Below, in pieces: positions 15,154 to 55,210 of a stretch of 64,000 nucleotides of DNA (its first letter is position 1; each line of letters begins with the position of its first letter). The DNA comes from Lentzea guizhouensis. Lineage in GTDB: Bacteria; Actinomycetota; Actinomycetes; Mycobacteriales; Pseudonocardiaceae. The notes under the pieces are model-generated. The model was not told where the DNA came from, did not search any database, and saw only the letters and a list, made by a program, of their open reading frames with translations. Position numbers and translations under genes: made by a program. The stretch covers positions 9,548,001-9,612,000 of the forward strand of contig NZ_CP016793.1 in the NCBI RefSeq assembly GCF_001701025.1, written 5' to 3'.

Positions 15154-15167
15154 TGTTCAGCTCTCCG

Positions 15168-15431
15168 TCAGAGGTACTTGTAGACGTCGTCGAGGGTCAG
15201 GCCGCGGCCCAGCATGATCACCTGGAGGCGGTACAGCAGCTGCGAGATCTCTTCGGCGAGCTTCTCGTCCGACTCGTACTCGGCGGCGATCCAGACCTCG
15301 CCCGCCTCCTCCAGCACCTTCTTGCCCTGCGCATGGACGCCGGCCTCAAGCGCAGCCACGGTGCCGGAACCCTCCGGCTTGGTGCGGGCACGTTCGGTCA
15401 GTTCGGCGAACAGCGAGTCGAAGGTCTTCAC
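15168..15431 (-). CDS. hisE: Phosphoribosyl-ATP pyrophosphatase HisE
   Basis: An 87-residue enzyme that hydrolyses PR-ATP to PR-AMP, the second step of histidine synthesis. The MazG-type helical metal site is visible in [17 protein letters not shown] and [17 protein letters not shown] 15431 is chosen because GGGAGG lies nine bases upstream and the protein then begins [11 protein letters not shown] like its homologues; the open frame continues upstream without conserved sequence. It heads the hisE-hisG-ABM operon. Confidence 0.95.
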
Positions 15432-15539
15432 GAATTCACATCCTCCCATCCCCGGGACCGGCGTCCACACCGCGGTCGGATCTGTTTCAGCCCGTGGACG
15501 TGATCTGTCCTGCATGGACACCCAGTAGCGTGAACTTCC

Positions 15540-16190
15540 GTGTCGGAGTTCGCGGAAGTGCTCGCAGCGTTGCGCCAGGTGCGCGGCATCAACCCGTTCT
15601 TCGCCCTGGACGTGGGCCGTCCGGACGACTCCTGGCTACCGGGAACGGCGCTGCTCGAAGGCCCGGCGCTCAAGGACACGATCGACGCGATCGCCACCCG
15701 GTACAACGCGGGCGAGCCGCGCGTAGCGGCCAGCCTGTTCTTCCTCAGCTACACCGCGCGCCTGCTCAGCCCGCTGACCGCGACGAACCTGCCGATCGAC
15801 GTCCGCCCGTCGAACCTCTGGTGGCACCACGACCGCGCCACCGGCCTGAGCGTGCGCATCGACGTGCCGCAGCTCGGCCCGCGACCGGTCGAAGCGCTCG
15901 CACCGGTCGTGGAAGCGGTCCACGCCGTCGTGCCGGTGGCGCGCGGACTGTTGTGGGGCAACGCGATGTCGAACATCGCGGGTGCGTTGAAAATGGTCGT
16001 GCGCGCGGGTGTGCTCACCGCGGAGGAAGCGGAAGAACGCGGCAACCAGCTCATGACCGCACCGCCGTTCGAAGGCGCGGGAGAATTCATCCCGTTCCCC
16101 GGCGAGGTGACGTTCCTGCGCCGGTCGTGCTGCCTCTACTACCGCGTTGCCGCAGGTGGGAAGTGCGGCGACTGCCCGCTCGTCAAGTGA
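15540..16190 (+). CDS. FhuF-like (2Fe-2S) ferric-siderophore reductase family protein
   Basis: A 216-residue protein with the FhuF C-terminal cluster motif. Two adjacent cysteines in RRSCCLYYR, then ten residues later C-x-x-C in [11 protein letters not shown], fit the C-C-x10-C-x2-C pattern that holds a 2Fe-2S cluster. The family reduces iron bound to hydroxamate siderophores. A TAGCGT hexamer eight bases before the GTG suggests a leaderless transcript. No siderophore genes are nearby. Confidence 0.85.
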
Positions 16191-16229
16191 GGAACGCAAC
16201 AACACTTATGGCCGGTTGTGCTCACCAAG

Positions 16230-16402
16230 CCGCTCAACTTACGGTGCACGCGCCGCAGTGACGGGAAGCCGGTGTGAATCCGGCGCGGTCCTCGCCACTG
16301 TGACCGGGAAGCGATCCCCGCCGAGCACGTCACTGGTCCCGCGAGGGGCTGGGAAGACGCGGGGGCAGCGATGATCCGGGAGTCAGGAGACCGGCTGCGG
16401 CG
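16230..16402 (+). ncRNA. Cobalamin (B12) riboswitch
   Basis: The conserved elements appear in order: GGTGCACGCGCC, GGGAAGCCGGTGTGAATCCGGC, GCCACTGTGACCGGGAAGC, and the B12 box GTCAGGAGACCGGCTGC. The distances are normal for the class. It sits directly before cbtB-cbtA. Binding of adenosylcobalamin should switch off cobalt uptake, probably by masking the ribosome site at 16433-16438. Confidence 0.93.
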
Positions 16403-16445
16403 CCGTAAGGAGTTTCACCTTCCACGAGGTATGGAGGAGCCCGTC

Positions 16446-16634
16446 ATGACGAGCCCCGCAGCAGGTCTGTCCGCCGTCCGCGTGCCCAAATGGGCCTTCG
16501 CCGTGTCACTGCTCGGCCTGATCGTCACCTACCTGGTCCTGCAGGAGAACGGCCTCGCGCTCGGTGCGAGCTCGGAGCTGCTGCACGAGTTCTTCCACGA
16601 CGGCCGGCACGCGCTCGGCGTCCCCTGCCACTGA
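16446..16634 (+). CDS. cbtB: Cobalt transporter subunit CbtB
   Basis: A 62-residue protein with one transmembrane helix (about residues 18-36) and a histidine-bearing C-terminus (LLHEFFHDGRHALGVPCH) that should bind cobalt. This is the standard form of CbtB. GGAGGA seven bases upstream fixes the ATG at 16446; an in-frame ATG at 16431 is less likely. It lies under the cobalamin riboswitch and 15 bases before cbtA. Confidence 0.93.
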   Translation: MTSPAAGLSAVRVPKWAFAVSLLGLIVTYLVLQENGLALGASSELLHEFFHDGRHALGVPCH

Positions 16635-16649
16635 TCCGCGACCACGCAG

Positions 16650-17408
16650 ATGACGACGACGTACAAGTCGATCGCACTGCGCGGAGTCGCGGCCGGCGCC
16701 ATCGCCGGTGTCGCCTCCGCGCTCGTGCAGCTCCTGGTCACCGAGATCCCGATCCGCGCCGCGCTCGCGGTCGAGGAGGCCCGGGAACCCGCCGGTGACG
16801 GCCACGGGCATGCCCACGGTGGCGAAGGAGAACTGGTCAGCCGCGGCGCGCAGGTCGTGGGCGGCATGCTCGGCGTGGTGGTCGTCGGCATCGCGGTGGG
16901 CCTGGTGTTCGCCACGGCCTACGCGCTGTCGAAGCGCTGGTTCGTCGACCGCACCCCGTTCAGCCGCAGCACGGCGTTCGGCCTGGCGGTCTTCGGCGCG
17001 GTCGCCCTGCTGCCGTGGCTGAAGTACCCGGCCAACCCGCCCGCCGTGGGCGACCCGGAGACGGTGAACCACCGCACCGCGCTCTACCTCGGTGTGGTGG
17101 TCGCGGGCCTGGTGATCGTCTGGGGTGCGAGCCGGCTCGCCTCCCGGCTGACCGCGCAGTCGCAACCGGTGCGCGTCACCGCGGTGCTGCTGGCCGTGGT
17201 CGCGGCCGTCGCGGTGGTGCTGCTGGCGTTCCCCGCGCCGCCGGACACGATTCCGGCGGACATGCCGGTGACCGTGCTGTGGCAGTTCCGGCTCAGCTCG
17301 CTCGCCCAGCTGGCCACGCTCTACGTGGGCATCGGCGTGGTGTTCGGGCTGTTGGTCGACCCGGCGACGCGCAGGGCCAAAGCGGACGCGCCAGTGGCCG
17401 TCGGCTGA
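16650..17408 (+). CDS. cbtA: Cobalt transporter subunit CbtA
   Basis: A 252-residue membrane protein with about six hydrophobic segments. A histidine-rich loop (DGHGHAHGGEGE, about residues 49-60) follows the first helix and is the expected metal-binding site. Together with CbtB it is thought to import cobalt for cobalamin synthesis. It is controlled by the riboswitch at 16230-16402. The B12-dependent methionine synthase is encoded about 1 kb downstream on the other strand. Confidence 0.93.
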   Translation: MTTTYKSIALRGVAAGAIAGVASALVQLLVTEIPIRAALAVEEAREPAGDGHGHAHGGEGELVSRGAQVVGGMLGVVVVGIAVGLVFATAYALSKRWFVDRTPFSRSTAFGLAVFGAVALLPWLKYPANPPAVGDPETVNHRTALYLGVVVAGLVIVWGASRLASRLTAQSQPVRVTAVLLAVVAAVAVVLLAFPAPPDTIPADMPVTVLWQFRLSSLAQLATLYVGIGVVFGLLVDPATRRAKADAPVAVG

Positions 17409-17526
17409 CCGGTCGTGGCGGGTGGTCGCTCCGGGGCCACCCCGTTTCTGTTGAAGGTCAAAGGTTTGCGAGCGGTGCACGGCGACGGCGGTGGCATTGC
17501 CGGGACGCTCCGGTTACGTTGCGGCG

Positions 17527-17907
17527 ATGGCCTGCCGGATCAGTGAACTGGTGCTCGAATGCCGCGACCCCGAACTGCTGGCGCGGTTCTGGTGCGAGGT
17601 GCTGAACTTCGTGGTGCTCGGCCGCGAGGACGACGGCAGCGTCGAGATCGGCCCGCGCGACGGGTTCGGCGGAGCCCAGCCGACGATCGTGTTCAGCCCC
17701 CACGACGAGCCGGTCAAGGCGAAGCCGCGGCTGCACATCGACGTCAACGCCACCGACCGCGACCAGGACGCCGAGCTCGAACGCCTGCTGGCCATCGGCG
17801 CCCGGCCGGCGGACGTCGGTCAGACCGGCGAGGAGTCGTGGCACGTGCTCGCCGATCCGGAGGGCAACGAGTTCTGCTTGCTCAGGCGCCGTCTCGACCC
17901 GCTCTGA
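17527..17907 (+). CDS. VOC-family (glyoxalase-like) protein
   Basis: A 126-residue protein of the vicinal-oxygen-chelate fold in the common actinobacterial form: ISELVLECRDPELLARFWCE at the start, PRLHIDVNATD in the middle, and WHVLADPEGNEFCLL at the end. The usual metal ligands are only partly recognisable, so it may not be an enzyme. ATG 17527 gives the family length. Confidence 0.87.
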   Translation: MACRISELVLECRDPELLARFWCEVLNFVVLGREDDGSVEIGPRDGFGGAQPTIVFSPHDEPVKAKPRLHIDVNATDRDQDAELERLLAIGARPADVGQTGEESWHVLADPEGNEFCLLRRRLDPL

Positions 17908-17911
17908 CGAG

Positions 17912-18568
17912 CTACAGCGCCTTCAGCACGTCGAGGTCGACGCCGACGAGCGAGTCGCGGAAGATCCGCCGCTCCCCCGGCGGCACCTCGACGTCGCAGG
18001 GCACGACCAGCACGGTGCACCCGGCCGCCACCGCCGCCGTCACCCCGGTCGGCGAGTCCTCGATCGCCACGCACCGGGCCGCGTCCACGCCCAGCAGCCG
18101 CGCCGCCTTCAGGTACGGCTCCGGCAGCGGCTTGTTCAGGCCGTCCACCTCGTCGCCGCACACGGTCACGTCGAACAGGTCCCGCCCGATGGTGTCCAGC
18201 GCGACCTCGGTCAGGCCGCGCTCGGTGGACGTCACCAACGCCATCGGCACGCCCGACGCACGGACCGCCTTCAACGCCTCCTGAGCGCCGGGGCGCCACG
18301 GCAGTCCGGCGCGGAAGACCTCCTCGGTGCGGCGCAGGATCCACGCGGCACCGTCGGCCATGTCGGCCTCGGTGGGCTCGATGCCGACGTCGCCGAACAA
18401 CAGGCGCATCGTCGTGGGCACGTTGCTGCCGACCATGCGTTCGCGGGTCTCCTGCGACAGCACGCCGCCGAGCTTCTCGGCGTACTCGAAGAGCGGGATG
18501 TCCCACAGCTTCTCGGAGTCGAGCAGTGTGCCGTCCATGTCCCACAGCACGGCCTGCAAGTCAGACAT
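17912..18568 (-). CDS. HAD-family hydrolase (phosphatase/phosphoglucomutase-like)
   Basis: A 218-residue HAD enzyme. Motif I is LWDMDGTLLDSEKL with nucleophile D10. A helical cap (about 18-85) indicates subclass I. Motif II is MALVTST, and motifs III/IV are in LPEPYLKAARLLGVDAARCV and AIEDSPTGVTAAVAAG. This set suits phosphatases of small metabolites. ATG 18568 overlaps the end of metH by eight bases, so it is the second gene of the metH operon. Substrate unknown. Confidence 0.9.
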   Translation of the reverse strand: MSDLQAVLWDMDGTLLDSEKLWDIPLFEYAEKLGGVLSQETRERMVGSNVPTTMRLLFGDVGIEPTEADMADGAAWILRRTEEVFRAGLPWRPGAQEALKAVRASGVPMALVTSTERGLTEVALDTIGRDLFDVTVCGDEVDGLNKPLPEPYLKAARLLGVDAARCVAIEDSPTGVTAAVAAGCTVLVVPCDVEVPPGERRIFRDSLVGVDLDVLKAL

Positions 18569-21500
18569 TGAAGTACTTCGCCTCCGGGTGGTGCGCCACG
18601 AAGGCGTCGGTGGACTGTTCGGGGTGCAGCTGAAGCTCCTCGGACAGGGAGACCCCGATGCGTGCCGGATCGAGCAGGTCGACGACGCGCTCGCGGTCTT
18701 CCATCTCGGGGCAGGCGCCGTAGCCGAACGAGTACCGCGCGCCGCGGTAGCCGAGCTTGAAGTACTCCTCGACGTCCGCGGGGTCCTCCTGAGCCACTGA
18801 GCCGCCCGAAGGCCACACGAGCTCCTCGCGGACCCGCTTGTGCCAGTACTCGGCCAGCGCTTCGGTGAGCTGGACCCCCAGTCCGTGGACTTCCAGGTAC
18901 TCACGATACGCGTTCTTGCCGAACAGCTCGTTCGCGTAGTCGGCGATCGGCTGGCCCATCGTCACGAGGTGGAACGCGATCACGTCGACCTCACCGGACT
19001 CCCGCGGACGCCAGAAGTCGGCCAGGCACAGCCGCCGATCCCTTTTCTGGCGCGGAAAGCGGAACCGGAAGCGCTCGGGCGAGTCCGCGGCGGGCTCGGT
19101 CAGGACCACCAGGTCGTTGCCCTCGGACACGCACGGGAAGTAGCCGTAGACGACGGCGGCGTGGGCAAGAACACCTTCCGTGGCAAGCCGTTCCATCCAG
19201 TACCGCAGGCGAGGACGGCCCTCGGTCTCGACCAGCTCCTCATAGGTAGGGCCACTGCCGCGCGAGCCCTTGAGCCCCCACTGGCCCATGAACGTCGCGC
19301 GCTCGTCCAGCAGGGCCGAGTAGTCCGCGACCGGGATGCCCTTCACCACCCGGCTGCCCCAGAACGGCGGCACCGGGATCGGGTTGTCCGCGGCCACGTC
19401 CGACCGGCCGGACACGACTTCCTCTTCTCCGGCAACGGCTTTGCGAGCCGCGGCGATGCGCAGCGAACGCTCGCGGCGGGCCTTGCGCTCCGCGGCCTTG
19501 GCCTGGGCCTCCGGGTCCACCAGCGGAGCCTCGCCGCGCTTGGCGGCCATGATCGCGTCCATCAGGCGCAGGCCCTCGAAGGCGTCCCGCGCGTAGCGGA
19601 CATCGCCGAAGTACATCTCGGTCAGGTCGTTCTCGACGTACGCCCGCGTCAACGCCGCACCGCCCAGCAGCACGGGCCACCGCGCCGCCACGCCCCTGGA
19701 GTTCATCTCCTCCAGGTTCTCCTTCATGATCACGGTCGACTTCACCAGCAGGCCGGACATGCCGATGGCGTCCGCGCGGTGCTCCTCCGCGGCCTCCAGG
19801 ATCGTGTTGATCGGCTGCTTGATGCCGATGTTCACGACCTCGTAGCCGTTGTTGGACAGGATGATGTCGACGAGGTTCTTGCCGATGTCGTGCACGTCGC
19901 CCTTGACGGTCGCGAGCACGATGCGGCCCTTGCCACCGGCAGCGTCGTCCTCGGACCGTTCCATGTGCGGTTCGAGGTGGGCGACGGCCGTCTTCATCAC
20001 CTCGGCGGACTGCAGCACGAACGGCAGCTGCATCTGGCCTGAGCCGAAGAGCTCGCCGACGGTCTTCATGCCCGCGAGCAATGTGTCGTTGATGATCTGC
20101 AACGCCGGCCGCTGCTCCAGCGCGGCGTCGAGGTCGGCCTCGAGCCCGTTGCGCTCACCGTCGACGATCCGGCGCTCCAGCCGTTCGAACAACGGCAGCG
20201 CCGCCAGCTCCTCGGCGCGCGAGGCCGAGTTGGACTTCGTGGTGACGCCCTCGAAGAGCTCCATCAGCTTCTGCAGCGGGTCGTAGCCCTCGCGGCGGCG
20301 GTCGTAGACGAGGTCCAGCGCGACCGCGCGCTGCTCGTCGGGGATCCGCGCCATCGGCACGATCTTCGAGGCGTGCACGATCGCGGTGTCGAGGCCCGCC
20401 TGCACGCACTCGTGCAGGAACACCGAGTTCAGCACCTGGCGCGCGGCCGGGTTCAGTCCGAAGGAGACGTTCGACAGGCCCAGGGTCGTCTGCACGTCCG
20501 GGTAACGCCGCTTGAGCTCGCGGATCGCCTCGATCGTCTCGACGGCGTCGCGGCGGACCTCCTCCTGGCCGGTGGAGATCGGGAACGTCAGGCAGTCGAC
20601 GATGATGTCGTTGACCCGCATGCCCCAGTTGGTGGTCAGGTCCTCGATCAACCGGACGGCGACGCGGACCTTCCACTCGGCCGTGCGGGCCTGCCCCTCC
20701 TCGTCGATGCACAGCGCCACCACAGCCGACCCGTGCTCCGACGCCAGCCGCATGATCTTCTGGAACCGCGAGTCCGGGCCGTCGCCGTCCTCGTAGTTGA
20801 CCGAGTTGACGGCGCTGCGGCCACCGAGGCACTCCAGCCCCGCCTGCAGCACCGCGGGTTCGGTGGAGTCGAGCATGATCGGCAACGTCGACGCGGTGGC
20901 CAGCCGGGACGCCAGCGCGCGCATGTCCGCCTCGCCGTCACGGCCCACGTAGTCGATGCACAGGTCGATCAGGTGCGCGCCCTCGCGGGTCTGGTCGCGC
21001 GCGATCTCGATGCAGTCGTCCCACTTCCCGGCCAGCATCGCCTCGCGGAACGCCTTGGAGCCGTTGGCGTTCGTGCGCTCGCCGATCATCAGCACCGACG
21101 CGTCCTGCTTGAACGGGACGGCCTGGTACAAAGAGGACACACCGGGCTCCGGGCGCGACCGTCGCCGGGTGGGACCGAGATCTTTCACCGCCTCCGTGAC
21201 CTGACGGAGGTGTTCCGCGGTCGTGCCGCAGCAGCCGCCGACGAGCCTCGTGCCGAACTCGGTGACGAACCCGGCGAGCGCCTGGGCCAGCTCCTCCGGC
21301 GAGAGCGGGTAGACGGCGCCGTCCGGGCCGAGCTCGGGCAGACCGGCGTTGGGCATCACCGACAGCGGGATGCGGGCGTGCTTGGACAACGTGCGCAGGT
21401 GCTCGCTCATCTCGGCGGGACCGGTGGCGCAGTTGAGGCCGATGAGGTCGATGCCGAGAGGTTCCAGGGCGGTCAGCGCGGCGCCGATCTCCGAGCCCAG

Positions 21501-40626: not shown

Positions 40627-41730
40627 ATGCAGGAGAAGACGAGGGACAGGTTCGTCGGCATCGGCGTCAGCTCCTACGAGCTGCTGCAGCCGTTGCAGCA
40701 CGCCGCGAGCGACGTGCTGGAGCTGCGTGCGCTCCTCAAGGGGTACGAGGGCGAGCCGCTGTCGGACCCGACCGAGGCCGAGGTCCGCGCGCACCTGCAG
40801 GCGGTCCGGCGCGACCGGCAGAACGGCGGCGCGCTGGTGGCGTTGTTCAGCGGCCACGCGGTGCCGGTCGCGGGCAAGCTGCGGCTGCAGGCCAGGGACA
40901 ACGACGGCGAGGCCGACGGCATCGCGATCGAGGACTTCGTGCTGTGGTGCGCGGCGTCCGGGGCGCACCAGGTGCTGGTCATCGTCGACGCTTGCTACTC
41001 GGGCACACAGCTGGACGACGCGCTGGGCACGATCGCGGAGATGCAGGAGCAGCTGCTCGCCGGGCAGATGCACTGGGCGGGCGTGCTGGTGTCGTGCTCC
41101 AGCGTCGAGACCGCGCGCGACGGGTTGTTCGGCGGCCGGCTGCGCAACCTGCTGCGCGGCGGCCCGAGCAAGGACGAGGACGTGTTGCGGTGGAGCGACC
41201 GCACGTCGCTCGTGGACGGCGGCACGGTCGGCACGGCGCTGCTGAACGCGTGGGACAGCGACGTGCAACGGCCGCGGTTCATGCAGTACGGGTCAGCGCA
41301 GCCGATGTTGCCCAACCCGCTCTACGCGCCGAACACCGTGGTCAAGCACCTGCTGCTGGCCGCGCGCGGCGGTGACTCGGCCGAGCACCGGTCGTGGTTC
41401 ACCGGCCGCACCGCCGAGGTCGACCGGGTCGTGGGCTGGGTCCGATCGGGCGTCGCCGGGCTGCGGGTGGTCACCGGGTCGCCCGGCAGCGGCAAGTCCG
41501 CCGTCGTCGGCCGGGTCGTGAGCCTGTCCAACGAAGCCGAGCGCGACCTGCTGCTGTCGTCCGGGCCGTCGTTCCGGCACGCCGACCCCGGTCCGTGTTC
41601 GGTCGACGCGGCCGTCCACGCCGCGATGGACGCCGACCGGGTCGCGGACCTGCTCAGCCGCCAGCTGGTCGCCGCAGGCTGGTCCCGCCCGACGGGCCGC
41701 GGGGTGCCGCCGAGCTGGTCGGCGTGGTGA
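40627..41730 (+). CDS. Caspase-like (C14) protease domain with NTPase Walker A, N-terminal half of a split gene
   Basis: The first 367 residues of what should be a 1300-residue protein. Residues 5-215 form a metacaspase/caspase-like domain with the catalytic dyad H77 (ALFSGHAVP) and C123 (IVDACYSGTQ). From about 255 a STAND/NACHT-like NTPase begins (WFTGRTAEVDRVVGWV) with Walker A GSPGSGKS at 284-291. The frame then reads into a false stop at 41730. The continuation, including Walker B, lies in the next frame. The break is at GGGG 41701-41704, where one extra G would restore the gene. The ATG follows a GGGGG ribosome site. Confidence 0.85.
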   Translation: MQEKTRDRFVGIGVSSYELLQPLQHAASDVLELRALLKGYEGEPLSDPTEAEVRAHLQAVRRDRQNGGALVALFSGHAVPVAGKLRLQARDNDGEADGIAIEDFVLWCAASGAHQVLVIVDACYSGTQLDDALGTIAEMQEQLLAGQMHWAGVLVSCSSVETARDGLFGGRLRNLLRGGPSKDEDVLRWSDRTSLVDGGTVGTALLNAWDSDVQRPRFMQYGSAQPMLPNPLYAPNTVVKHLLLAARGGDSAEHRSWFTGRTAEVDRVVGWVRSGVAGLRVVTGSPGSGKSAVVGRVVSLSNEAERDLLLSSGPSFRHADPGPCSVDAAVHAAMDADRVADLLSRQLVAAGWSRPTGRGVPPSWSAW

Positions 41731-44528
41731 GCGGGCTCGCCCAGCCACCGGTGCTGGTCGTCGACGGCCTGGACGAGGCGCGCGGCGAGTCGTTCTCGAT
41801 CGCCACGTCGTTGCTGACCAAGCTCGCGGACCACGCCGTCGTGATCGTGTCGACGCGGCAGGTGCACCGGGTCGTCGGTCGCGCTCCGCTGCTCACCGAG
41901 CTGTCTCCGATGGAGGTGCTGGACCTCGACGACGGCGGCAGCGAGGCCGACGTCCGGGACTACGTGGTGGCACGACTGGGAACGACCGTGCCGCAGTCCA
42001 CTGTGGACGAGCTGGCGGGGCTGCCGTTCCTGACCGCGTGGATGATCACCGACCAGCTGCTCTCCGACGGCGGTGCGGACCTCAAGCTGTCGCTGGACGC
42101 GGCGTTCGACCGGGAGCTCGCGAAGGTGCCGGCCGCGCGACCGTTGCTGACGGCGCTGACGTGGAGCTACGGCGCCGGGTTCCCCGAGGAGGAGTGGCGC
42201 GCGGTCGCGGAAGCCTTGTCGGGCGAGCGGTTCAGCCGCGACGACATCACCGCCGTGCTCACCGAGCTGGGCCGCCACATCGTGCAGGACGGCGAGGAGG
42301 GCACGGCGGTCTTCAAGCTGACGCACCAGACGTTCGCCGACCACCTGCGGCCGCAGTTCTCCCCCAGCCGCGACACGGTGTTCGCGCCGGGCGCGGAGAA
42401 GGTGGCGTGCGCGTTGATCGGCCTGTACCGGCAGCGGCTGGAGGCGGGTGTGCCACCGGACGTGCCGGGCTACCTGTGGAAGTACGCGTGGCGGCACTGC
42501 GGGCACGCGAGCGCGGAGGCGTTGGACGCGCTGCGCGCGCTGGCGACGATGAACCGGATGTTGTTGCCGGACATCGCACTCGCGGCCACGACGGCGGCGA
42601 ACGAGCTGGCGCACTGGGGCCGAGGTGACGAGGCGATCGAGCCGCTGGAGGAGGCCGCGTCGCACTTCCGCGCTCTGGTGCCGACGTTGCGGATGTACCT
42701 GGCGGACCTGGCCTTCGTGCTGAACCGGCTCGGCCTCCGGTACCGCGAGGCCGGGCGGCTGCAACACGCCGTGGCGCCCGCCGAGGAAGCCGTCGTGCGG
42801 TACCGGGAGCTGGTGGCGCGGACCCCGACGACCGCGGAGACCCTGACGCACAAACGACTTGCGCAACGCATCGCGAAGACGACCACGCAGCCGGGCGAGA
42901 ACCAGACGTACGTGGCGCACCTCAGCGGCGCCCTGGTCGACCTGAGCGGGCTCTACGCGATGCTCGGCCGCCGGCACGAGGCGTTGTCGACGGCACGCGA
43001 CGCCGTTGCCGCGGTGGACACCGACGCCCCGCTGGCCCGCGCGATGATGTGCCTCGCGACCCGGTGCAACGAGACCGGACGGCGGTACGAGGCGATGCAC
43101 CGGTCGAAGCAGGCCGTCGAGCTGTACTACGCGCTGGCGCAGACGAACCCGTTGTACCTGGCGGACCTGGTGACCGCGCTGGTCGAGCTGAGCCGCGACT
43201 TCCTCTCCCTGGGGCGGTTGTCCGACACCGACCGCACCACCCAGCAGGCCGCGGAGATCAACGGCACGCTCGGCCGGCACGCCGCGTTCGAGCCGCAGCT
43301 CGCCGACGCCGCGCTCGCGTTGAGCGTCGCCTACAGCATGGTCGGTCGCACCGAGGAGGCGCTGAACTCCGCCCGCAAGGCCGCGGAGCTCGCCGAGGGG
43401 CTGCGGATCCACGGGCAGGCGCTGCACAACCTGATGCGCCGCCAGCGCGACGCCGAGAAGCCGCGCGAGGCGATGGTGACCGGGCTGCGGACGATCGAGG
43501 TGTGCCTGCTGCCGGGACACGAGCACCGGCTGTCGACGCTCGCGGCGGCGTTGTTCACGCTCGACACGGTCTGCGCGCGGCTGGGGCAGCCGGAGATCGT
43601 CGAGGAGGCGTGGGACCGGGTCGTGGAGCGGTTCACCGGACCGCACCTGGCGACGTTGCTGATGCTGCGGGCGGCGGCGACCACGGCGGGCGACCCGGCG
43701 GTGGCGAAGTGGCTGTGCCAGGCGCTCACGCACGTCGGCCAGTCCCGGCAGGCGCGGCACGACGTGCACGACATCGCCCGCCGCCACCACGACTTCTACC
43801 GCGCCTCCGGGCGGCCGTGGCCGTGGGACAGCACGCCGGACTGGCTCACGGTGGACCGCGGGCTGCTCAGGACCGCCCGCAGGTGGGTGTTCGCGCGGTC
43901 CTACGTCGAGGAGCGCGCGGTCCTGCTGGCGCACCCCGAGCTGCTGTCGGCCGATGCCGACGTGGCGGTGACCGAGGCGTTGTACGGCACCAGCCTGATC
44001 GAGGCCCAGGTCATCCAGTCGCGCCGAACGACCGCGCAGGCCCAGGGGGTCGAGCTGGCGTACCGGCCGTGGCTGCTCGCGAGCCTCGCCGACGAGTTCG
44101 TCGACGCCACCCCGGCACGCCGCCGCGAGCTGCTCGCCGTGCGGCGCGGCGAGCTGCTGGACAAGGAAGTGCTGCGCACCGTGCGGGACAACCGGCCGGT
44201 GCACGCGTTGCTGCTGCTCGCCGACTCCGACACCGACGTGCTCGACCTCGTGCTGGACGCGCTGGAGAACCCGCCGCGGGCCACCGAGGTCCTGCGCGGG
44301 CTGGCCTCCGGTGCCTCACCGCAGGCGTTGACCCAGGCCGTGGTCGCGCTGGAGCCGCACCCGCTGGCCGCGCTGTACAAGGTCGTCGCACGGGTCAGGG
44401 CGGGCGACGAGCGGCTGGCGTTGCCGGTGGCGGAGCGGCGCCTGGGGTGGATCCACGAGCTGACCTACCTGGTGCCCGCGAACCTGAAGCTGCTCACCCT
44501 CATCCGCAAGCTCGCCGAGGAGTCCTGA
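41727..44528 (+). CDS. STAND-type NTPase and TPR region, C-terminal part of the caspase gene
   Basis: Begins in the second frame of the split gene, with coding similarity already evident from about 41703. Walker B is VLVVDGLDEA, then a sensor segment (HAVVIVSTRQV) and the winged-helix part of a NACHT-like NTPase (to about 42480). Roughly ten helical TPR-like repeats follow (AHWGRGDEAIEPLEEAASHF, LNRLGLRYREAGRLQHAVAP, ALSVAYSMVGRTEEALNSAR) and a C-terminal helical region. The layout effector-NTPase-repeats is that of STAND switch proteins, in which repeats sense a signal and NTP-driven assembly activates the protease. Its stop overlaps the start of the lipase gene (ATGA), so the two are coupled. 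Confidence 0.8.
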   Translation: MSGLAQPPVLVVDGLDEARGESFSIATSLLTKLADHAVVIVSTRQVHRVVGRAPLLTELSPMEVLDLDDGGSEADVRDYVVARLGTTVPQSTVDELAGLPFLTAWMITDQLLSDGGADLKLSLDAAFDRELAKVPAARPLLTALTWSYGAGFPEEEWRAVAEALSGERFSRDDITAVLTELGRHIVQDGEEGTAVFKLTHQTFADHLRPQFSPSRDTVFAPGAEKVACALIGLYRQRLEAGVPPDVPGYLWKYAWRHCGHASAEALDALRALATMNRMLLPDIALAATTAANELAHWGRGDEAIEPLEEAASHFRALVPTLRMYLADLAFVLNRLGLRYREAGRLQHAVAPAEEAVVRYRELVARTPTTAETLTHKRLAQRIAKTTTQPGENQTYVAHLSGALVDLSGLYAMLGRRHEALSTARDAVAAVDTDAPLARAMMCLATRCNETGRRYEAMHRSKQAVELYYALAQTNPLYLADLVTALVELSRDFLSLGRLSDTDRTTQQAAEINGTLGRHAAFEPQLADAALALSVAYSMVGRTEEALNSARKAAELAEGLRIHGQALHNLMRRQRDAEKPREAMVTGLRTIEVCLLPGHEHRLSTLAAALFTLDTVCARLGQPEIVEEAWDRVVERFTGPHLATLLMLRAAATTAGDPAVAKWLCQALTHVGQSRQARHDVHDIARRHHDFYRASGRPWPWDSTPDWLTVDRGLLRTARRWVFARSYVEERAVLLAHPELLSADADVAVTEALYGTSLIEAQVIQSRRTTAQAQGVELAYRPWLLASLADEFVDATPARRRELLAVRRGELLDKEVLRTVRDNRPVHALLLLADSDTDVLDLVLDALENPPRATEVLRGLASGASPQALTQAVVALEPHPLAALYKVVARVRAGDERLALPVAERRLGWIHELTYLVPANLKLLTLIRKLAEES

Positions 44529-45853
44529 TGAGTGATCTCGTCGTCGTCCTGCCCGGCATCCTCGGCAGCACGCTGCGCGACGAGGACGGCATGGTCTGGG
44601 AGGTGTCCGGGCGGGCCGCGCTGAGGGCCGTGCTGACGCTGGGACGCAGCCTGCGGCGGCTCAAGCTGCCCGCGGGGATCGGCGACGAGCACCCGCAGGA
44701 CGGCATCGAACCCGTGGGGCTGATGACCGACCTGCACGTCATCCCGGGCATCTGGACGCCGTTGAAGGGCTACGACCGGGTGACGCGGCGGATGAACTCG
44801 CTCGGCTACACCGTGGAGAAGGGCAACCTGCTGCTCTTCGCCTACGACTGGCGGCTGTCGAACCGGTACAACGGCGCGTTGCTGGCCCGGCGGGTGGACG
44901 AGGCGCTCGACCGGATCGGCCCTGATGCCAAGGTCAGCTTCGTGTGCCACTCGATGGGCGGGCTGGTCGCGCGGTGGTGCGTCGAGCAGTGCGGGATGGC
45001 CGAGCGCACGGACAGGCTGATCACCATGGGCACGCCGTACCGAGGGGCGGCCTCGGCGTTGGAACAGCTGGTCAACGGGGTGCGCAAGGGACTGGGGCCG
45101 TTGGCGGTCGACCTGACGGAGTTCGCCCGGTCGATGCCGTCGCTGCACCAGCTGTTGCCCGAGTACGCCTGCATCGAGTCACCGAACGGCCTGGTCAAGA
45201 CCACGGAGATGACGTTGCCGGAGCTCGACACGAAGATGGTCACGGACGCGATGGCGTTCCACGGCGCGTTGACCGACTCGTTCGCCGACCAGACGTACGC
45301 GATCGTCGGCGGCAAGCAGCCCACGGCGACCACGGCGAAGATCGCCGACGGCAAGGTCACCTGCTATCGCACGTATGAGGGCGAGGAGCTCTACGGCGAC
45401 GCGACCGTGCCGATGGTCGGTGGCGCGCGCAAGGGACTGACGCTGTCGTCGAACACGTTGCACCGGGTGACCGAGCAGCACACGTCGCTGCAGGACAACG
45501 CCGCGGTGCTGGACATGGTGGAGTCGTTCCTGACCTCCAAGAACATCGTGCCGAGGAACGTCGCGGTCACGGAACCGCAGGTGAGCGTGCCCGACCTCGC
45601 GCTGGTCGGTGAGGAGCTGGAGGTCGTCGTCGAGCTGCGCGGCACTCCTGCCCGCGCGGTGAAGGTGGCGTTGCTCGACGAGAACGGCAAACAGGTCGAA
45701 GCACGCGTCCCGGCGATCTCCGAGTCGATGGTGGTCAAATTCGGTGAATTGGCCCCCGGCGCGTATTACGTGCAGGTCAGCGGCACCGCGGTGGGTGCTC
45801 CGGTGGTCCCGGTGACCTCCGCGGTGCTCGTCATGGATTGCCCCGAGGTCTGA
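44528..45853 (+). CDS. LCAT/PGAP1-type alpha/beta hydrolase (lipase/acyltransferase)
   Basis: A 441-residue alpha/beta hydrolase. VVVLPGILGSTLRDEDGMVW is the LCAT-type oxyanion strand-loop, and the nucleophile serine is in FVCHSMGGLVARW. The acid and histidine are probably in DATVPM and LHRVTEQHTSL (about residues 295-320). The last 100 residues form an Ig-like beta domain. Enzymes of this family deacylate phospholipids or move acyl chains. There is no signal peptide, so it acts in the cytoplasm or on the inner membrane face. Four-base overlap with the caspase/NTPase gene suggests a toxin-like lipase partner. Confidence 0.88.
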   Translation: MSDLVVVLPGILGSTLRDEDGMVWEVSGRAALRAVLTLGRSLRRLKLPAGIGDEHPQDGIEPVGLMTDLHVIPGIWTPLKGYDRVTRRMNSLGYTVEKGNLLLFAYDWRLSNRYNGALLARRVDEALDRIGPDAKVSFVCHSMGGLVARWCVEQCGMAERTDRLITMGTPYRGAASALEQLVNGVRKGLGPLAVDLTEFARSMPSLHQLLPEYACIESPNGLVKTTEMTLPELDTKMVTDAMAFHGALTDSFADQTYAIVGGKQPTATTAKIADGKVTCYRTYEGEELYGDATVPMVGGARKGLTLSSNTLHRVTEQHTSLQDNAAVLDMVESFLTSKNIVPRNVAVTEPQVSVPDLALVGEELEVVVELRGTPARAVKVALLDENGKQVEARVPAISESMVVKFGELAPGAYYVQVSGTAVGAPVVPVTSAVLVMDCPEV

Positions 45854-49694: not shown

Positions 49695-51623
49695 TCAGCG
49701 GCGTTGCTTGCGGGAGCGGAGGTAGTCGCTGACCACGGCGGCGCCCAGGCCGTCCTCGTCGGCGGCCACCACGCGGCCGCCACCGCGGCGGGCCACGATG
49801 TCGACGAAAGCGGCCAGGCGAGGGTCGTCGCCCAGCTTGAAGACCGAGATCGTCGCTCCCAGGCGGGCCAGGGAGTCGACCTCGTTCAGCGTCTTGGTCA
49901 GCGTGCGCGGCAGCGGTGGGTAGTGGAACTCGGCGTCGCCCTCCGGTTCGAGGTGGGCGGTGGGTTCGCCGTCGGTGACGACCAGCACCACGGGCTGGGC
50001 GTCGGGGTGGCGGCGGACGTGGCGGCCCGCGAGGAGCAGGGCGTGGTGCAGGTTGGTGCCCTGTTCCCAGACGCCCTCCAACGCCGTGAGCTGGCCGATG
50101 TCGACGGCCTCCGCGTAACGGCCGAAGGTGACCAGTTGCAGGGCGTCGGTGCGGAAGCGGGTCTGGATGAGGTGGTGCAGGGCCAGGGCGGTGCGCTTCA
50201 TGGGCACCCAGCGGCCGTCCTGGACCATCGACCACGACGTGTCGACGCACAGGGCGACGGCGGCGCGGGAGCGGTGTTCGGTTTCGGCGACCTCGATGTC
50301 GACCACGTCGAGGGACATGGCGCCGGAGCGCAGCACGGAGTTGCGCAGGGTGCGGGGGACGTCCCACGGTTCGGTGTCGCCGAACTGCCACGGGCGGGTG
50401 GAGCCGATCAGTTCGCCCGCGGCACCGGCGGTGACGGTGTCGCGGGAGCCCTGGGAGGAGCGCAGCTGGTCGACGACGCCGCGCAGGGCGGTTTCGCCGA
50501 GGCGGCGCAGGGCCTTCGGGGTCAGGCGCAGCGAGCCGTCCGGGGCCCGTTCGAGGATGTTCTGCTGGCGCAGGGCCTTTTCGAGCTCGGCGAGGCGACG
50601 GGCGTCGACGGAGGCCTCCGGGCCGAGCTGGCGTTCCAGTGCCTCCAGGTCGATGTCCTCCAGGCGGGCGCCGGGGTAGGACTGGGCGAGCTGTTCGGCC
50701 AGTGCGTCCAGCTCGGCGAGGTCGGCCATGGCCTGCGCGCCCTCGCCGAGGCCGAGCGGGTCCTGGCCGCGGAACCGGGCCGAGGAGGTCCAGTCCTCGC
50801 CGGGGCGCAGGCGTTGCAGCAGGGAGTCCAGCGTGGACAGCTGCGAGCCGATGCCGCCGAAGGCCTGCTGGGACAACGCGGACAGCTCGGCGCGCTGTTC
50901 GTCGGTCATCGAGTTCATCATGCGTTGCGCCGCGGCCGAACGGGCGGCCAGCGCGTCGATCAGCTCGTCGACGGTGCGCGGGTTCTCCGGGAAGAAGTCG
51001 CCGTGCTTGCGCATGAACTCGTCGAACATGCGCGGTGTGTCGGGCGAGGAGGCCGCGTGGGCGGTCAGCAGCTCGTTGAGGTCGCGCAACATGCGCTGGA
51101 TGCGGCGCACGTCCTCGGAGTCCACGTTGGACAGTGCTTCCTTCATCCCGCGGAAGCGCTGGTCCAGCAGCTCACGGCCGAGCAGCTCGCGGATCTGCTC
51201 GTACGCCTGCCTGGCCTCCTGCGACTGCCAGGAGTAGTTCGCGAGCTCCTGCACCGCCGCGGCCGTGCCCTGGGGCAGGGCGTCCAGCTGGGCCTCGCGG
51301 AAGCGGGCGTCGTCGGACGGGTCGGGGAACAACGCCCGCCGCTCCGCCTCCAGCGCCTCGTCCAGCAGCCGCCGGACCTCCTGCAGCGTGCCGTCGAGGC
51401 GGTGGCGGCGCTTGATCGACGAACGCCGCTGCCACAGCCGCGAGGTCATGTCGTCCAGGCCGCGCGTGCCGTCCACGCCGCGCCGCAGCAGCTCGCGCAG
51501 CGCGGCGTTGGGTGAGGCGCCCTCCATGATCTCGCGGCCGAGCTCGTCCACGGCCGCGCGCAGGTCGACGGGGGGCGCCAGCGGGTCGGCGCCGCCGCCC
51601 CAGCGTCCGTAGCGGTATCTCAT
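49695..51623 (-). CDS. VWA domain-containing protein, partner of the MoxR-like ATPase
   Basis: A 642-residue cytoplasmic protein. Residues 1-430 are mostly helical, with a possible coiled coil (LREAQLDALPQGTAA to LREQARPAY region), and the C-terminal vWA domain (about 445-640) carries the MIDAS motif DTSWSM and a TDGEPTAHL element. MoxR ATPases with vWA partners act as metal-dependent chaperones that insert cofactors or remodel complexes. The start overlaps the ATPase gene stop by four bases. In the same operon as the ATPase. Confidence 0.88.
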   Translation of the reverse strand: MRYRYGRWGGGADPLAPPVDLRAAVDELGREIMEGASPNAALRELLRRGVDGTRGLDDMTSRLWQRRSSIKRRHRLDGTLQEVRRLLDEALEAERRALFPDPSDDARFREAQLDALPQGTAAAVQELANYSWQSQEARQAYEQIRELLGRELLDQRFRGMKEALSNVDSEDVRRIQRMLRDLNELLTAHAASSPDTPRMFDEFMRKHGDFFPENPRTVDELIDALAARSAAAQRMMNSMTDEQRAELSALSQQAFGGIGSQLSTLDSLLQRLRPGEDWTSSARFRGQDPLGLGEGAQAMADLAELDALAEQLAQSYPGARLEDIDLEALERQLGPEASVDARRLAELEKALRQQNILERAPDGSLRLTPKALRRLGETALRGVVDQLRSSQGSRDTVTAGAAGELIGSTRPWQFGDTEPWDVPRTLRNSVLRSGAMSLDVVDIEVAETEHRSRAAVALCVDTSWSMVQDGRWVPMKRTALALHHLIQTRFRTDALQLVTFGRYAEAVDIGQLTALEGVWEQGTNLHHALLLAGRHVRRHPDAQPVVLVVTDGEPTAHLEPEGDAEFHYPPLPRTLTKTLNEVDSLARLGATISVFKLGDDPRLAAFVDIVARRGGGRVVAADEDGLGAAVVSDYLRSRKQRR

Positions 51624-51876
51624 CCGTACACCGATCGGTCGTCGTCGGAAGAGGTGTCCTTGGACAGGTGCCGGGTCAGGTACAGCGACTCCAGCGCGAG
51701 CTCCACGGCGGAGGCGATGCGGCCGGCCGGGTCCTTCGGGCCGGCGCCCAGCCTGGTCGCCACCTCGTGCAGCACCGGCAGCTCGGGCAGTGCCGCGAGC
51801 AGGTCGCCCGCGTGCACCCGGTCACCGGTCGCGACCGGGTGGCCGTCCGAGACCGCCTCGGCGAGCGTCCGCAGGT
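51620..51876 (-). pseudogene. Displaced C-terminal part of the MoxR-like ATPase
   Basis: The frame LAGLNLRTLAEAVSDGHPVA, DLLAALPELPVLHEVATRLG, ASAVELALESLYLTRHLSKD and RSVYG is the normal C-terminus of this ATPase subfamily. It lies one frame off the upstream part because a base is missing at about 51895-51897. Restored, the ATPase would be about 463 residues. The end overlaps the vWA gene start. Probably a consensus error rather than a true second gene. Confidence 0.75.
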
Positions 51877-53010
51877 TCAGGCCGGCCAGGCGGCCCGCGC
51901 GGTGTCGGCGATCGACCGGCGCAGCAGGTGCACCAGGACCTCGTCCTCGCGCCCCTCCTCCCCCGCCTCGAACTCCAGCTTGCCGCGCAGCACGTCCGGC
52001 ACCGACTCCAGGTCGACCGGCCGCGCGATGGCCGGGGTCTCGCCGATCAGCGCGGACCGGCGCAGCGCGGAGGCCGCGACCGTCTCCGCCGCCGCGATCG
52101 CGAACCGCGCCGACACACCGGAGCGCTGGTCGATCGACGACGACTCGCGCAGGTGGCGCACGAACCGGGCGATGATCTCCAGCAGGTGGTCACCCACCTC
52201 GGCGACCAGTTCGGCCTCCTGGCGGACCATGTCCACCTCGGCGTCGACCTCCAGCGGGTAGTGCGTGCGCACCTCGGCGCCGAAGCGGTCCTTCAGCGGC
52301 GTGATGATGCGGCCGCGGTTGGTGTAGTCCTCGGGGTTCGCGGTCGCCACGAGCAGCACGTCCAGCGGCAGCCGCAGCGTGTAGCCGCGGACCTGGATGT
52401 CGCGCTCCTCCATCACGTTCAGCAACGCGACCTGGATGCGTTCGGCCAGGTCAGGCAGCTCGTTGATGGCGATGATGCCGCGGTGGGCACGCGGCAGCAG
52501 GCCGTAGTGGATCGTCTCCGGGTCGCCGAGCGAACGCCCTTCGGCGACCTTCACCGGGTCGACGTCGCCGACCAGGTCACCCACGGAGGTGTCCGGCGTG
52601 GCGAGCTTCTCGGCGTACCGCTCGTCGCGGTGCCGCCACACCACCGGGAGGTCGTCACCGAGCTCGGCGGCCCGGCGACGCGACTCCGGTGTGATCGGGT
52701 CGAGCGGGTGTTCGCCCAGCTCGGAGCCCTCGATCACGGGAGTCCACTCGTCCAGCAGCGACACGATCGTGCGCAGCAGGCGCGTCTTGCCCTGACCGCG
52801 CTCGCCGAGCAGGACCACGTCGTGCCCGGCGAGCAACGCCCGTTCGAGCTGCGGGAGCACCGTGCGGTCGAAACCGACGATGCCGGGCCACGGGTTGCGT
52901 CCCTCGCGCAGAGCCGCGAGGAGGTTCTCGCGGATCTCGGTCTTGACGCCGCGCGGCCGGTGCCCGGCGGCGCGCAGTTCGCCCGCCGTGCGGGCCAGGT
53001 TCTGGGTCAC
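51877..53010 (-). CDS. MoxR/magnesium-chelatase-type AAA ATPase (C-terminus frameshifted)
   Basis: A 377-residue open frame. The AAA core has Walker A GERGQGKT (about 62-69), a Walker B position in HRGIIAINELPDL, sensor 1 in LLVATANPEDYTNRG and a sensor 2/lid region. LPRA-HRGIIAINELPDLAE and RIQVALLNVMEERDIQVRGY mark the magnesium-chelatase ChlI-like clade. The frame stops early at 51877 after RSIADTARAAW, owing to a missing base in a G run; the true end is at 51620. GTG 53010 follows a damage-type promoter by seven bases (leaderless). It works with the vWA protein. Confidence 0.85.
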   Translation of the reverse strand: MTQNLARTAGELRAAGHRPRGVKTEIRENLLAALREGRNPWPGIVGFDRTVLPQLERALLAGHDVVLLGERGQGKTRLLRTIVSLLDEWTPVIEGSELGEHPLDPITPESRRRAAELGDDLPVVWRHRDERYAEKLATPDTSVGDLVGDVDPVKVAEGRSLGDPETIHYGLLPRAHRGIIAINELPDLAERIQVALLNVMEERDIQVRGYTLRLPLDVLLVATANPEDYTNRGRIITPLKDRFGAEVRTHYPLEVDAEVDMVRQEAELVAEVGDHLLEIIARFVRHLRESSSIDQRSGVSARFAIAAAETVAASALRRSALIGETPAIARPVDLESVPDVLRGKLEFEAGEEGREDEVLVHLLRRSIADTARAAWPA

Positions 53011-53017
53011 GCCGACG

Positions 53018-53040
53018 ACGCTACGCAGGACCACCGACAA
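53018..53040 (-). promoter_or_regulatory. RecA-NDp/PafBC-type promoter of the ATPase/vWA operon
   Basis: TTGTCGGTG, 8 bases, TAGCGT on the minus strand: an exact consensus match. It ends seven bases before GTG 53010, predicting a leaderless transcript. Confidence 0.6.
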
Positions 53041-53065
53041 TTTCGACGTGGAGCGACTCCAGCCC

Positions 53066-55210
53066 CTACCGCACGGCCGCCTCCACGGCGTTGCGCAGGA
53101 TGCGTGCCATCGCCGGGTCGTCGGCCAGGGCTCCGTTGAAGCACAAGGAACCCACGCTGAACACCCACCCTCCGTTCGGCTTCGGCAGCACGACCATCTC
53201 GGCACCGTGGCCGGGGTCTTGTAAGCCGTGAGCGAACGCGACGGCGTCCGGTTCGACCCGCCCGGCGCCGGCCCGGTTGTCGACCTCCCAGCCACTGGCC
53301 GCGAAGTTGTACCCGGTGTGGCCGAACTCGCTGCCGACCGTGAGCCCGGTGCCCTCCAGGAACGGGTGCTCGGCGCTCACGACGTACGGCTTCATCTCCA
53401 TGTACGACCAGCTGTCGTACGCCACGCCGAGCACGGCGGACTCCGGCCGGCCCTGGTCACGCCACAGCCACCGGTGGCCGGAGTCGTTGCGGTGCAACAC
53501 GAAGCCGGCGGGGTCGTGGTCGACGCGCTCGTACATGCCGTTGCCGCCCGTGTAGATCACCCGGCCGCCGTTGGCCAGATAGGTCTCCACGGCGTCACGC
53601 ATCTGCGGCGTCCAGTACTCGGGGTGAGACGCCAGCACGAGCACCTTGTACTGCGCCAGCCAGCTCGGGTCGTGCAGGTCGACGTCCTGGTAGCAGTCGT
53701 AGCCGAGGCTGTTGTCCGCGAACCACTTCATCAGCAACAGGTCGCCGTGGAAACGCACGTCGATGAAGCCCGGCCCCTCGATGAACGCGTTCCCGAACGG
53801 CCGGTTCGTGGTGATCTTGCGGCGCGCTGGACGTTCGTCCCAGGTGTACTGGAAGTGCCCGCCCCAGTGGTTGTAAGCGTTGTGCGTCAGGAACGGCAGC
53901 AGCAGCGCGACGTCGTGTTCGGGCTGCTTGGGCTTCACGACAAATGGGATGTACTGCCGCATTCCGTACGCGCCTTCGAGCTTCACGACGTGAAAGCCCG
54001 ACGGCCAGTCCCCGATGTCGACGCTCAGGTCCGTGGTCCACCCGCAGCCGTTCGCCCGGTAGCCGGACCTCAACAACTGCCTGCGCCCCCGGAACGTGCG
54101 CGGCGCCCACACTTCCGCGGCATAGCCCTGCTCGACCGGCCCGTTCAGCCGGAGCACGCTCGCGCGGTACTCGTCGAGCGTCGTCGAGACGGCCACGTCG
54201 AGGCGCTCGCCCTGGGAGGCCGACCAGCGGGTGTAGCCCTGCAGGTTCGCGGCGCGGGTGACGGTGAAGCCGGTGCCGACGAGCTTGCCGGTGCCGCCGG
54301 CCGCCCACGTCCCCCCGCCGTCCACGTCGACCGTGCGGTGGTTGGTGAGCCGGTACCAGTGCAGCTCGTGGTCGGGCCGGTCCGGGTCCCTGTTGACGAA
54401 CACGCAGTAGAAGACGCCACCGGCGTCGGCGAACCGCTCGACGCTGCTGCCCCAGTCCCAGCCGGAACCGATGCCGATCCCCTCGCCGTCGTTCGCCCAG
54501 GCACCGGGCCCGGTGGACCCGTCACCGGCGAGGTAGCGGAACCAGTGCAGCGACGCGCCGTGCCGCACCGCGTAGATCACCCCGTCGGTGTCGGCCCACC
54601 ACAGGTCGTAGTCGCGCTTGCCGGAGGCGATCTTCTGGCCGACGCCGTCATGCGCCCACGCACCCGGCCCGTTCGAGCCGTCACCGGCCTTGTACTTGAA
54701 CCAGTACAGGTCACCCTGCTTGTCCACGGCGTAGAAGACGCCGTCCCAGCCGCCGAACACGGCCGCGTAGTCGCGGAAGCCGCGGTGGATGATGTTGTTC
54801 GTACCCGGCGCCCAGTAGCCCTCACCGGTGGCGCTGTTGGTCAGCACCCACTTGTGCCACCAGAGCGTGCCGTCGCCGCAGAAGCCGAAGACCTGGCCGT
54901 CCTGGGACGCGAGCACGGTCGTGTGGATCTGCCAGCCGAGGCCGATCTCACGGCCGTTGCCGTCGGCCCAGTTGTACGTGCCGTCGGTGCGGCCGAGGTG
55001 CTTGAACCACTTGAGGCGCCCGTCGGCGTACCAGGCGTACAGCACGCCGTTGCCGCCGGGAACGATCTGCAGCAGCCGCTGCTCCGGGTCGTCGTCCGCC
55101 GCCCTCGCCGTACCCGGCCCCGCGACCAGTGCCGCCCCTGCCAGCGCGGCCGCCCCTTGCAGGACGGTTCTGCGCGCGACTCCGCTGTTTTCCGAATCCC
55201 CCAGATCCAT
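53066..55210 (-). CDS. Tat-exported tachylectin-like propeller fused to N,N-dimethylformamidase-like domain
   Basis: A 714-residue exported protein. The twin-arginine signal (ARRTVLQGAAALAGAALVAG, ending ARAAD) covers residues 1-38. Residues 45-310 form a tachylectin-type beta-propeller with repeated WFKYKAGDGSNGPGAWAHDG-like blades that usually bind sugars. Residues 310-714 resemble the large subunit of N,N-dimethylformamidase, with an Ig-like part and a glutamine-amidotransferase-like fold (LVLASHPEYWTPQMRDAVET, GGRVIYTGGNGMYERVDHDP). ATG 55210 is chosen for the signal peptide. Tat export suggests folding with a cofactor in the cytoplasm. Substrate unknown. Confidence 0.88.
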   Translation of the reverse strand: MDLGDSENSGVARRTVLQGAAALAGAALVAGPGTARAADDDPEQRLLQIVPGGNGVLYAWYADGRLKWFKHLGRTDGTYNWADGNGREIGLGWQIHTTVLASQDGQVFGFCGDGTLWWHKWVLTNSATGEGYWAPGTNNIIHRGFRDYAAVFGGWDGVFYAVDKQGDLYWFKYKAGDGSNGPGAWAHDGVGQKIASGKRDYDLWWADTDGVIYAVRHGASLHWFRYLAGDGSTGPGAWANDGEGIGIGSGWDWGSSVERFADAGGVFYCVFVNRDPDRPDHELHWYRLTNHRTVDVDGGGTWAAGGTGKLVGTGFTVTRAANLQGYTRWSASQGERLDVAVSTTLDEYRASVLRLNGPVEQGYAAEVWAPRTFRGRRQLLRSGYRANGCGWTTDLSVDIGDWPSGFHVVKLEGAYGMRQYIPFVVKPKQPEHDVALLLPFLTHNAYNHWGGHFQYTWDERPARRKITTNRPFGNAFIEGPGFIDVRFHGDLLLMKWFADNSLGYDCYQDVDLHDPSWLAQYKVLVLASHPEYWTPQMRDAVETYLANGGRVIYTGGNGMYERVDHDPAGFVLHRNDSGHRWLWRDQGRPESAVLGVAYDSWSYMEMKPYVVSAEHPFLEGTGLTVGSEFGHTGYNFAASGWEVDNRAGAGRVEPDAVAFAHGLQDPGHGAEMVVLPKPNGGWVFSVGSLCFNGALADDPAMARILRNAVEAAVR

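Follow-up and report, generated by a model that had tools for sequence, protein, structure and literature searches.

Pairs of a caspase and an α/β-hydrolase, said to operate together, have been predicted by Kaur et al. 2020 (PMC7159879), whose passages on this pairing place it on the caspases of VMAP/vWA proteins and in GAP1-N1 systems. A freestanding pair of a STAND-caspase and a lipase is not found in those passages, in which around 70% of the caspases on vWA proteins are given as inactive. VMAP at CRISPR loci is treated in PMC10910872, and among related systems, protease-activated nuclease pairs and the caspase-nuclease (canu) systems were shown in 2025 (PMC12799240). Here we analyse a stretch of 64,000 nucleotides of Lentzea guizhouensis, a member of a soil-dwelling genus (NZ_CP016793.1; hereafter the window, whose positions are used throughout) in which a caspase-STAND-TPR receptor gene is followed by the gene of an LCAT-type lipase (40627–45853, forward strand). 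The window carries a caspase and α/β-hydrolase pair in the sense of Kaur et al. 2020, and the pairing as such is not new, because it was already proposed there; an initial annotation, made from the DNA letters, had taken it for uncharacterised and overlooked this proposal. What is new is the freestanding two-gene form, the exchange of its caspase-STAND-TPR unit with VMAP systems within Lentzea, the CHAT and transglutaminase-like partners of the lipase, and a conserved linker arginine as a candidate cleavage site. In the open-access literature searched, supplements excluded, no described freestanding pair was found, and an earlier description may exist.

Joint inheritance of receptor and lipase

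The caspase-STAND receptor and the lipase are a real, co-inherited two-gene unit. One scan of genome contigs from the caspase-NTPase side gave 75 loci, 38 of which (L053–L090; caspase profile E ≤ 1e-30) count as the caspase family. The initial annotation had made the coupling of the two genes depend on their not being rarely adjacent elsewhere, and they are not: the lipase lies beside the receptor, on the same strand, in 35 of the 38 caspase loci. The three others are L072 and L084, at contig ends, and L081 (Naasia), the only lipase-less locus with sufficient flank, where the receptor gene has no lipase within 10 kb on its upstream side or 7 kb on its downstream side; L081 is also the sole copy in which the catalytic Cys is replaced by Ser. 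The lipase of L072 is on another contig, apparently of the same genome (L052). The lipase lies behind a repeated receptor piece in L083 and 279 bases away in L059. The 21 Lentzea-type loci come from one genus and largely from the same genomes as the survey of 24 genomes described below, and are not independent. Outside them the lipase is present in 15/17 loci, after the receptor in nine and before it in six; hence, the pairing survives a reversal of gene order. Among the remaining 37 loci, L091 (Blastocatellia, with WD40 repeats and a DACYSG motif) has a lipase, and the 36 loci with the related NTPase only or with a weak caspase match (L092–L127) have none; nine of these controls have weak caspase matches, and L098, L103, and L104 are short (<7 kb).

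Of the 24 Lentzea genomes surveyed, 22 have an ortholog of the receptor and one of the lipase, and the remaining two (G193 and G051) lack both. The pairwise distances of receptor and lipase are strongly correlated among 13 non-Lentzea loci plus one (Mantel r 0.965, none of 5,000 permutations as high) and less so in Lentzea alone (r 0.479, 1/5,000), which is the coevolution expected of protease-activated effector pairs of the canu kind. The tree and the Mantel tests exclude the broken or early-cut receptors L072, L078, and L083; L081 and L084, which offer no lipase for comparison, have long branches that meet in the tree and may be misplaced.

The initial annotation also pointed to a slipin gene, correctly placed 59 bases upstream of the caspase open reading frame (ORF), as a possible membrane platform. 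The slipin gene is found at 20/21 Lentzea-type loci and at 0/17 others, and it is retained where the pair has been lost; we regard it as a bystander. At the locus of G051 (L051 5664–6768, reversed orientation), the caspase gene has been lost, as has most of the lipase gene, and the slipin gene is kept, followed by a 101-residue C-terminal scar of the lipase whose frame overlaps the slipin end.

Domains, catalytic residues, and a frame break

Where the initial annotation read one caspase-NTPase-TPR protein and a lipase, positions 40627–45853 hold three open frames, not two, and the single receptor protein is absent from the window genome. The first ORF (40627–41730, frame 1, 367 residues from a start at 40627) contains a paracaspase-like caspase domain, from residue 1 to about 235, and the first part of the STAND NTPase including Walker A, and it ends early by a frame break. 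The second (41727–44528, frame 3, with a GTG start that is a guess) contains the remainder of the STAND NTPase and TPR-like repeats. The catalytic dyad (40855–40995) consists, by alignment, of His77 (40855–40857) and Cys123 (40993–40995), with Asp121 two residues ahead of the Cys. In an alignment of the window with 38 relatives, His77 and Asp121 are found in 39/39 sequences and Cys123 in 38/39, the exception being L081. Walker A (GSPGSGKS, 41476–41499) has G284, G287, G289, K290, and S291 each in 39/39, and Walker B (DGLDE, 41763–41777) lies in the frame-3 ORF. The dyad and both Walker motifs claimed by the initial annotation are thus all present, with conserved residues; its TPR-like repeats are there too, in the frame-3 ORF, with scores below the Pfam cut-offs. 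Six more distant relatives were scanned, and four have clear TPRs, one has WD40 repeats, and one has neither.

The NCBIfam caspase model NF047832 matches the 367-residue ORF (E 2e-12, 47 bits; model cut-off 140). Pfam C14 has no match to the window caspase ORF; it matches the L. californiensis ortholog with 34.8 bits against a cut-off of 21.4, and 12 of 18 family members when E values up to 0.1 are allowed. A search of the window genome with PF00656 gave one other gene only and missed both caspases, that of the window and a paralog described below. With a STAND NTPase profile built from the relatives, the window gives matches in two different frames, at E 1e-53 and 4e-129. Structure prediction for an intact ortholog gives a paracaspase resembling MALT1, followed by a STAND NTPase that resembles Apaf-1. 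With a His-Cys dyad in a predicted caspase fold, the N-terminal domain can be assigned to peptidase family C14. The ortholog has the Walker A and B motifs and the Apaf-1-type NTPase and helical domains of a STAND NTPase, a domain split over two frames in the window.

The lipase gene (44528–45853, forward strand) starts inside the receptor stop codon, and the overlap is of one base (TGATG, 44526–44530), not of four as first annotated. Its 441-residue product is a hydrolase of the LCAT/lysosomal phospholipase A2 type (PF02450 LCAT, 51.6 bits), as the initial annotation had recognised, with a lipase domain (residues 1–338), a linker, and a C-terminal Ig/CARDB-like domain (about 351–436). No signal peptide is evident in the sequence and the model. 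The predicted triad (44951–45481) is Ser142 (44951–44953), Asp291 (45398–45400), and His318 (45479–45481), each present in 36/36 caspase-paired lipases; in the lipases with other partners the Ser is found in 11/12 (with one gap) and the Asp and His in 12/12. The predicted LCAT fold and Ser-Asp-His triad place the protein with LCAT and group XV phospholipase A2.

The frame break (41676–41730, forward strand) lies between Walker A and Walker B, with the switch near 41680–41690 and the frame-1 stop TGA (41728–41730) overlapping the frame-3 GTG (41727–41729). Relative to seven congener copies and the paralog of the same genome, the window is about 7 nucleotides shorter in the variable Walker A–B linker and has a 3-nucleotide gap just upstream. 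In the 24 Lentzea genomes, including that of the window, the caspase gene is present in 22: as a single frame of about 1,300 codons in 20, cut by a contig end in one, and broken in the window. When 13 genes of the nearest relative at the locus (L068, around 90% identical) are compared with the window by tblastn, 12 match in one frame and the receptor in two; hence, among the genes compared, the break is confined to the receptor. L068, whose record bears the name Nocardia sp. NRRL S-836, falls within Lentzea in the tree and is probably misnamed. The NTPase part is also broken in two further loci of the 38, by an in-frame stop in L078 and a frameshift in L083, and a full-length lipase follows the broken receptor in all three cases. 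In L083 (Blastococcus, 9926–19929), the NTPase-TPR part is repeated downstream, ahead of the lipase, as if partly duplicated.

With its receptor gene frame-broken, the window copy probably does not function, unless the break arose in sequencing or assembly and the cell has an unbroken gene. Such an error is a serious possibility, if short of an even chance: the site is GC-rich and repeat-like, and the second ORF is open over 933 codons that are around 90% identical to the nearest ortholog, but none of the others in the 13-gene set is broken and two other genomes are broken in the NTPase part as well. A programmed frameshift joining the halves was considered and rejected, as no obvious slippery heptamer is seen by eye and the congeners need none. 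An intact caspase-STAND-TPR paralog, fused into a VMAP system, is present elsewhere in the same genome.

VMAP systems and other partners of the lipase

In this paralog (L024, C1:5361282), the caspase-STAND-TPR unit stands behind a vWA-like region and is 79% identical to the window over the caspase half, with the dyad kept in the alignment. Its operon has the order LCAT, VMAP, MoxR, and vWA-caspase-STAND-TPR, as do L202 and L203 in 2 of the 23 other Lentzea genomes (G603 and G596); a third (G599, L204) carries a lipase and a distant caspase in its VMAP operon. L024 is a VMAP ternary system, with VMAP-M2 (PF19965, 50.2 bits) and AAA_5 (29.9 bits) above the cut-off and the vWA part as the weakest element (VWA_CoxE, 17.4 bits, below the cut-off). 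In the tree, a fully supported clade of 23 rows unites the three fused copies with the freestanding Lentzea copies; the fused copy of the window genome is nested among the freestanding ones (98/94), and the remaining two lie next to this group. The fused copies thus nest with the freestanding ones, but the VMAP-operon lipases are only 38–40% identical to the window lipase over the matched part, which argues that the caspase-STAND-TPR unit has been exchanged between the freestanding pair and VMAP systems having their own lipase.

The freestanding loci are not VMAP ternary systems: two-sequence hidden Markov models for MoxR, vWA, and VMAP give no hit at any of the 38 caspase loci (threshold E ≤ 1e-4) and none in the window (threshold E < 0.1). 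PADLOC gives weak matches only. On the opposite strand of the window, 4–8 kb away, there is a vWA gene (49695–51623; PF13519, 30.7 bits) beside an ORF that by eye resembles an AAA ATPase (51877–53295). We take these two (49695–53295) to be a general actinobacterial ChlI/MoxR-vWA pair and not a VMAP system.

The initial annotation had allowed that the lipase might be a housekeeping enzyme found everywhere. This is not the case, as it is matched in 19/200 genomes of the family and 12/394 of the class (E ≤ 1e-30 and 1e-25, respectively, thresholds of our own choice), and 22 of the 23 lipase loci outside Lentzea are at or near a conflict-type gene, whether of the VMAP or CHAT type or for a STAND protein (with a caspase, with a transglutaminase-like domain, or other); the 23rd locus runs into a contig edge. 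NB-ARC genes are also among the partners adjoining lipases of the window type. The partner is divergently oriented in L146, L150, and L152, and convergent with two ORFs between in L049. Neighbourhood genes were called with our own codon-based script, several partner labels come from profiles that we built or, for the transglutaminase-like partners, from weak Pfam scores, and the gene in the VMAP position of L145 has no Pfam hit. Another genus of the family has, in three genomes (L044–L046), a lipase between a CHAT-AAA gene and an NB-ARC-TPR gene. In L153 (6207–10700), a single frame of 1,497 residues fuses a STAND-type NTPase (AAA_16, 45 bits) to the lipase, and no caspase motif was found in it.

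The caspase unit has no match in the plasmid collection. Distant relatives of the lipase occur in nine plasmid records, seven of them typed as conjugative; among the four neighbourhoods read, an AbiE toxin-antitoxin pair is close to the lipase in one and a restriction enzyme in another. On the conjugative Bradyrhizobium plasmid pBsp27S5a (L207), the lipase adjoins a CHAT gene with S8 peptidase, C1 peptidase, and AbiE genes close by, in what looks like a defence island. On plasmids of Rhizobium (L206) and Sphaerospermopsis (L208), the lipase is followed by a protein with, by eye, an apparent transglutaminase-like N-terminus and a STAND-type NTPase, carrying HEAT repeats in L208; L050 and L147 have a similar N-terminus.

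A putative self-destruct switch and its known relatives

The two genes, their catalytic residues and folds, their adjacency, joint loss, and correlated divergence, and the exchange with VMAP systems are established by computation, and we think it rather likely that the pair is a two-gene self-destruct or defence switch. Its trigger, oligomerisation, cleavage, membrane damage, and outcome, as cell death or phage defence, we infer. The receptor would be a one-chain apoptosome-like protein, in which the TPRs (WD40 or HEAT repeats in related systems) keep the STAND NTPase closed. Upon a trigger, the NTPase would bind nucleotide and oligomerise, gathering the N-terminal paracaspase-like domains and rendering the protease active. 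The protease would then act on or with the phospholipase A2-like lipase, most simply by a cut after a basic linker residue, for which Arg343 is the candidate, and this cut would free or reposition the lipase domain to attack the cell's own membrane lipids.

Arg343 (45554–45556, forward strand) lies in the linker between the lipase and Ig-like domains, where the predicted structure is of lower confidence (mean predicted local distance difference test score of 64 for residues 341–350). The initial annotation had proposed inspecting the hydrolase for a caspase-cleavable linker, and a conserved basic residue is found: position 343 is basic in 35/36 caspase-paired lipases (34 Arg, 1 Lys, and 1 Glu), and outside Lentzea the 15 copies have 13 Arg, 1 Lys, and 1 Glu. 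No other position from 337 to 351 is as conserved in a set of 13 copies from outside Lentzea (11 Arg, 1 Lys, and 1 Glu at 343). Arg and Lys are the residues after which MALT1 and metacaspases cut, and in both an Asp two residues before the Cys favours them. The distribution of the residue weighs against a simple reading of it as a cleavage site, since the Arg does not track caspase partners cleanly. It is present in 4 of the 12 other lipases (the two with a transglutaminase partner, one of the three with a CHAT partner, and one beside a STAND-WD40 gene), and it is missing from the four VMAP-operon lipases and from two beside other caspase-type proteins (L091 and L144). Common descent alone could explain its conservation.

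A bolder version, which we put forward tentatively, is that a phospholipase A2-like pro-enzyme and a cysteine peptidase form a mobile effector cassette common to STAND systems (caspase, CHAT, and transglutaminase) and VMAP systems. In the caspase branch, a paracaspase restrained by an Apaf-1-like switch would cut after Arg343 and set the lipase free, for a death resembling pyroptosis. If true, the cassette would parallel the nuclease-protease pairs, and the membrane of an infected cell would be destroyed by an enzyme instead of a pore.

The lipase may also be no substrate at all, and it is conceivable, though not what we expect, that the two proteins are parallel effectors, the STAND oligomer recruiting the lipase (e.g., through the Ig-like domain) while the caspase cuts other proteins. 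Recruitment would fit all the partners of this lipase family, including transglutaminase-like and CHAT STAND proteins and VMAP systems, and also the fusion of lipase and STAND NTPase in L153, where no caspase motif is detected. Against this, a cysteine peptidase-like domain is found in many of the partners (a caspase, CHAT, or, with weak Pfam scores, a transglutaminase-like domain), and nearly all caspase-paired lipases have a basic residue at 343.

Actinomycete mycelia undergo programmed death, and the pair has a fixed chromosomal place and is near-universal in one genus. Both would suit a role in the mycelium that involves no phage, with cell death or membrane remodelling tied to development or stress. 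We hold this to be unlikely in view of the patchy distribution across distant genera outside Lentzea, the exchange with VMAP conflict systems, and the mostly conjugative plasmids that carry relatives of the lipase, one of these near AbiE and one near a restriction enzyme. It is very improbable that the caspase-STAND protein instead restrains the lipase, as a protease that removes a toxin: a tight two-gene operon and joint loss would suit an antidote, but a lipase with a broken receptor should then be lethal, and the window, L078, and L083 keep the lipase frame.

A phospholipase gene next to a gene that combines a caspase domain with an Apaf-1-like switch is about the smallest testable apoptosome-like unit, and the pair offers a concrete candidate whose residues can be named. 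That the unit was recently exchanged between the freestanding pair and VMAP systems within one genus offers a route to what the poorly understood VMAP core adds.

With the Apaf-1 apoptosome and the MALT1 paracaspase the receptor shares a likeness of fold only, and both parts are here in one chain. The lipase differs from group XV (lysosomal) phospholipase A2, LCAT, and the type VI secretion system phospholipase Tle4 by its extra C-terminal Ig-like domain, by having no evident secretion signal, and by its STAND partner. The EACC1-caspase two-gene systems (Kaur et al. 2020) have a related N-terminal caspase (NF047832) and variable C-terminal modules that include STAND NTPases, whereas the window caspase scores far under the NF047832 cut-off and has no EACC1 neighbour. 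EACC1 (PF19953) has no match in the window genome, in a search without a positive control genome. The same search works in the relatives, since 9 of 14 of their genomes have matches, 20 in total, 18 of them outside the module locus; the two that could overlap the module by coordinates (L085 and L086) sit on other contigs. Membership in the EACC1 systems was rejected, there being no match at the module in the window genome or in the 14 relatives.

The VMAP ternary systems resemble the pair in having a caspase with a neighbouring α/β-hydrolase and, in the window genome itself, the same caspase-STAND-TPR unit. The window unit differs in being without the MoxR/vWA/VMAP core, and in its relatives the caspase, STAND, and TPR parts are one protein. 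The canu and other nuclease pairs (PMC12799240) share with the present pair a protease gene that is paired and coevolves with a second, potentially gated hydrolytic enzyme, and such pairs move between unrelated systems. The partner there is an MBL nuclease, and in the window it is a phospholipase A2-like lipase. By this analogy, the present pair would fit the pattern of protease-activated effectors, with a lipase as the partner.

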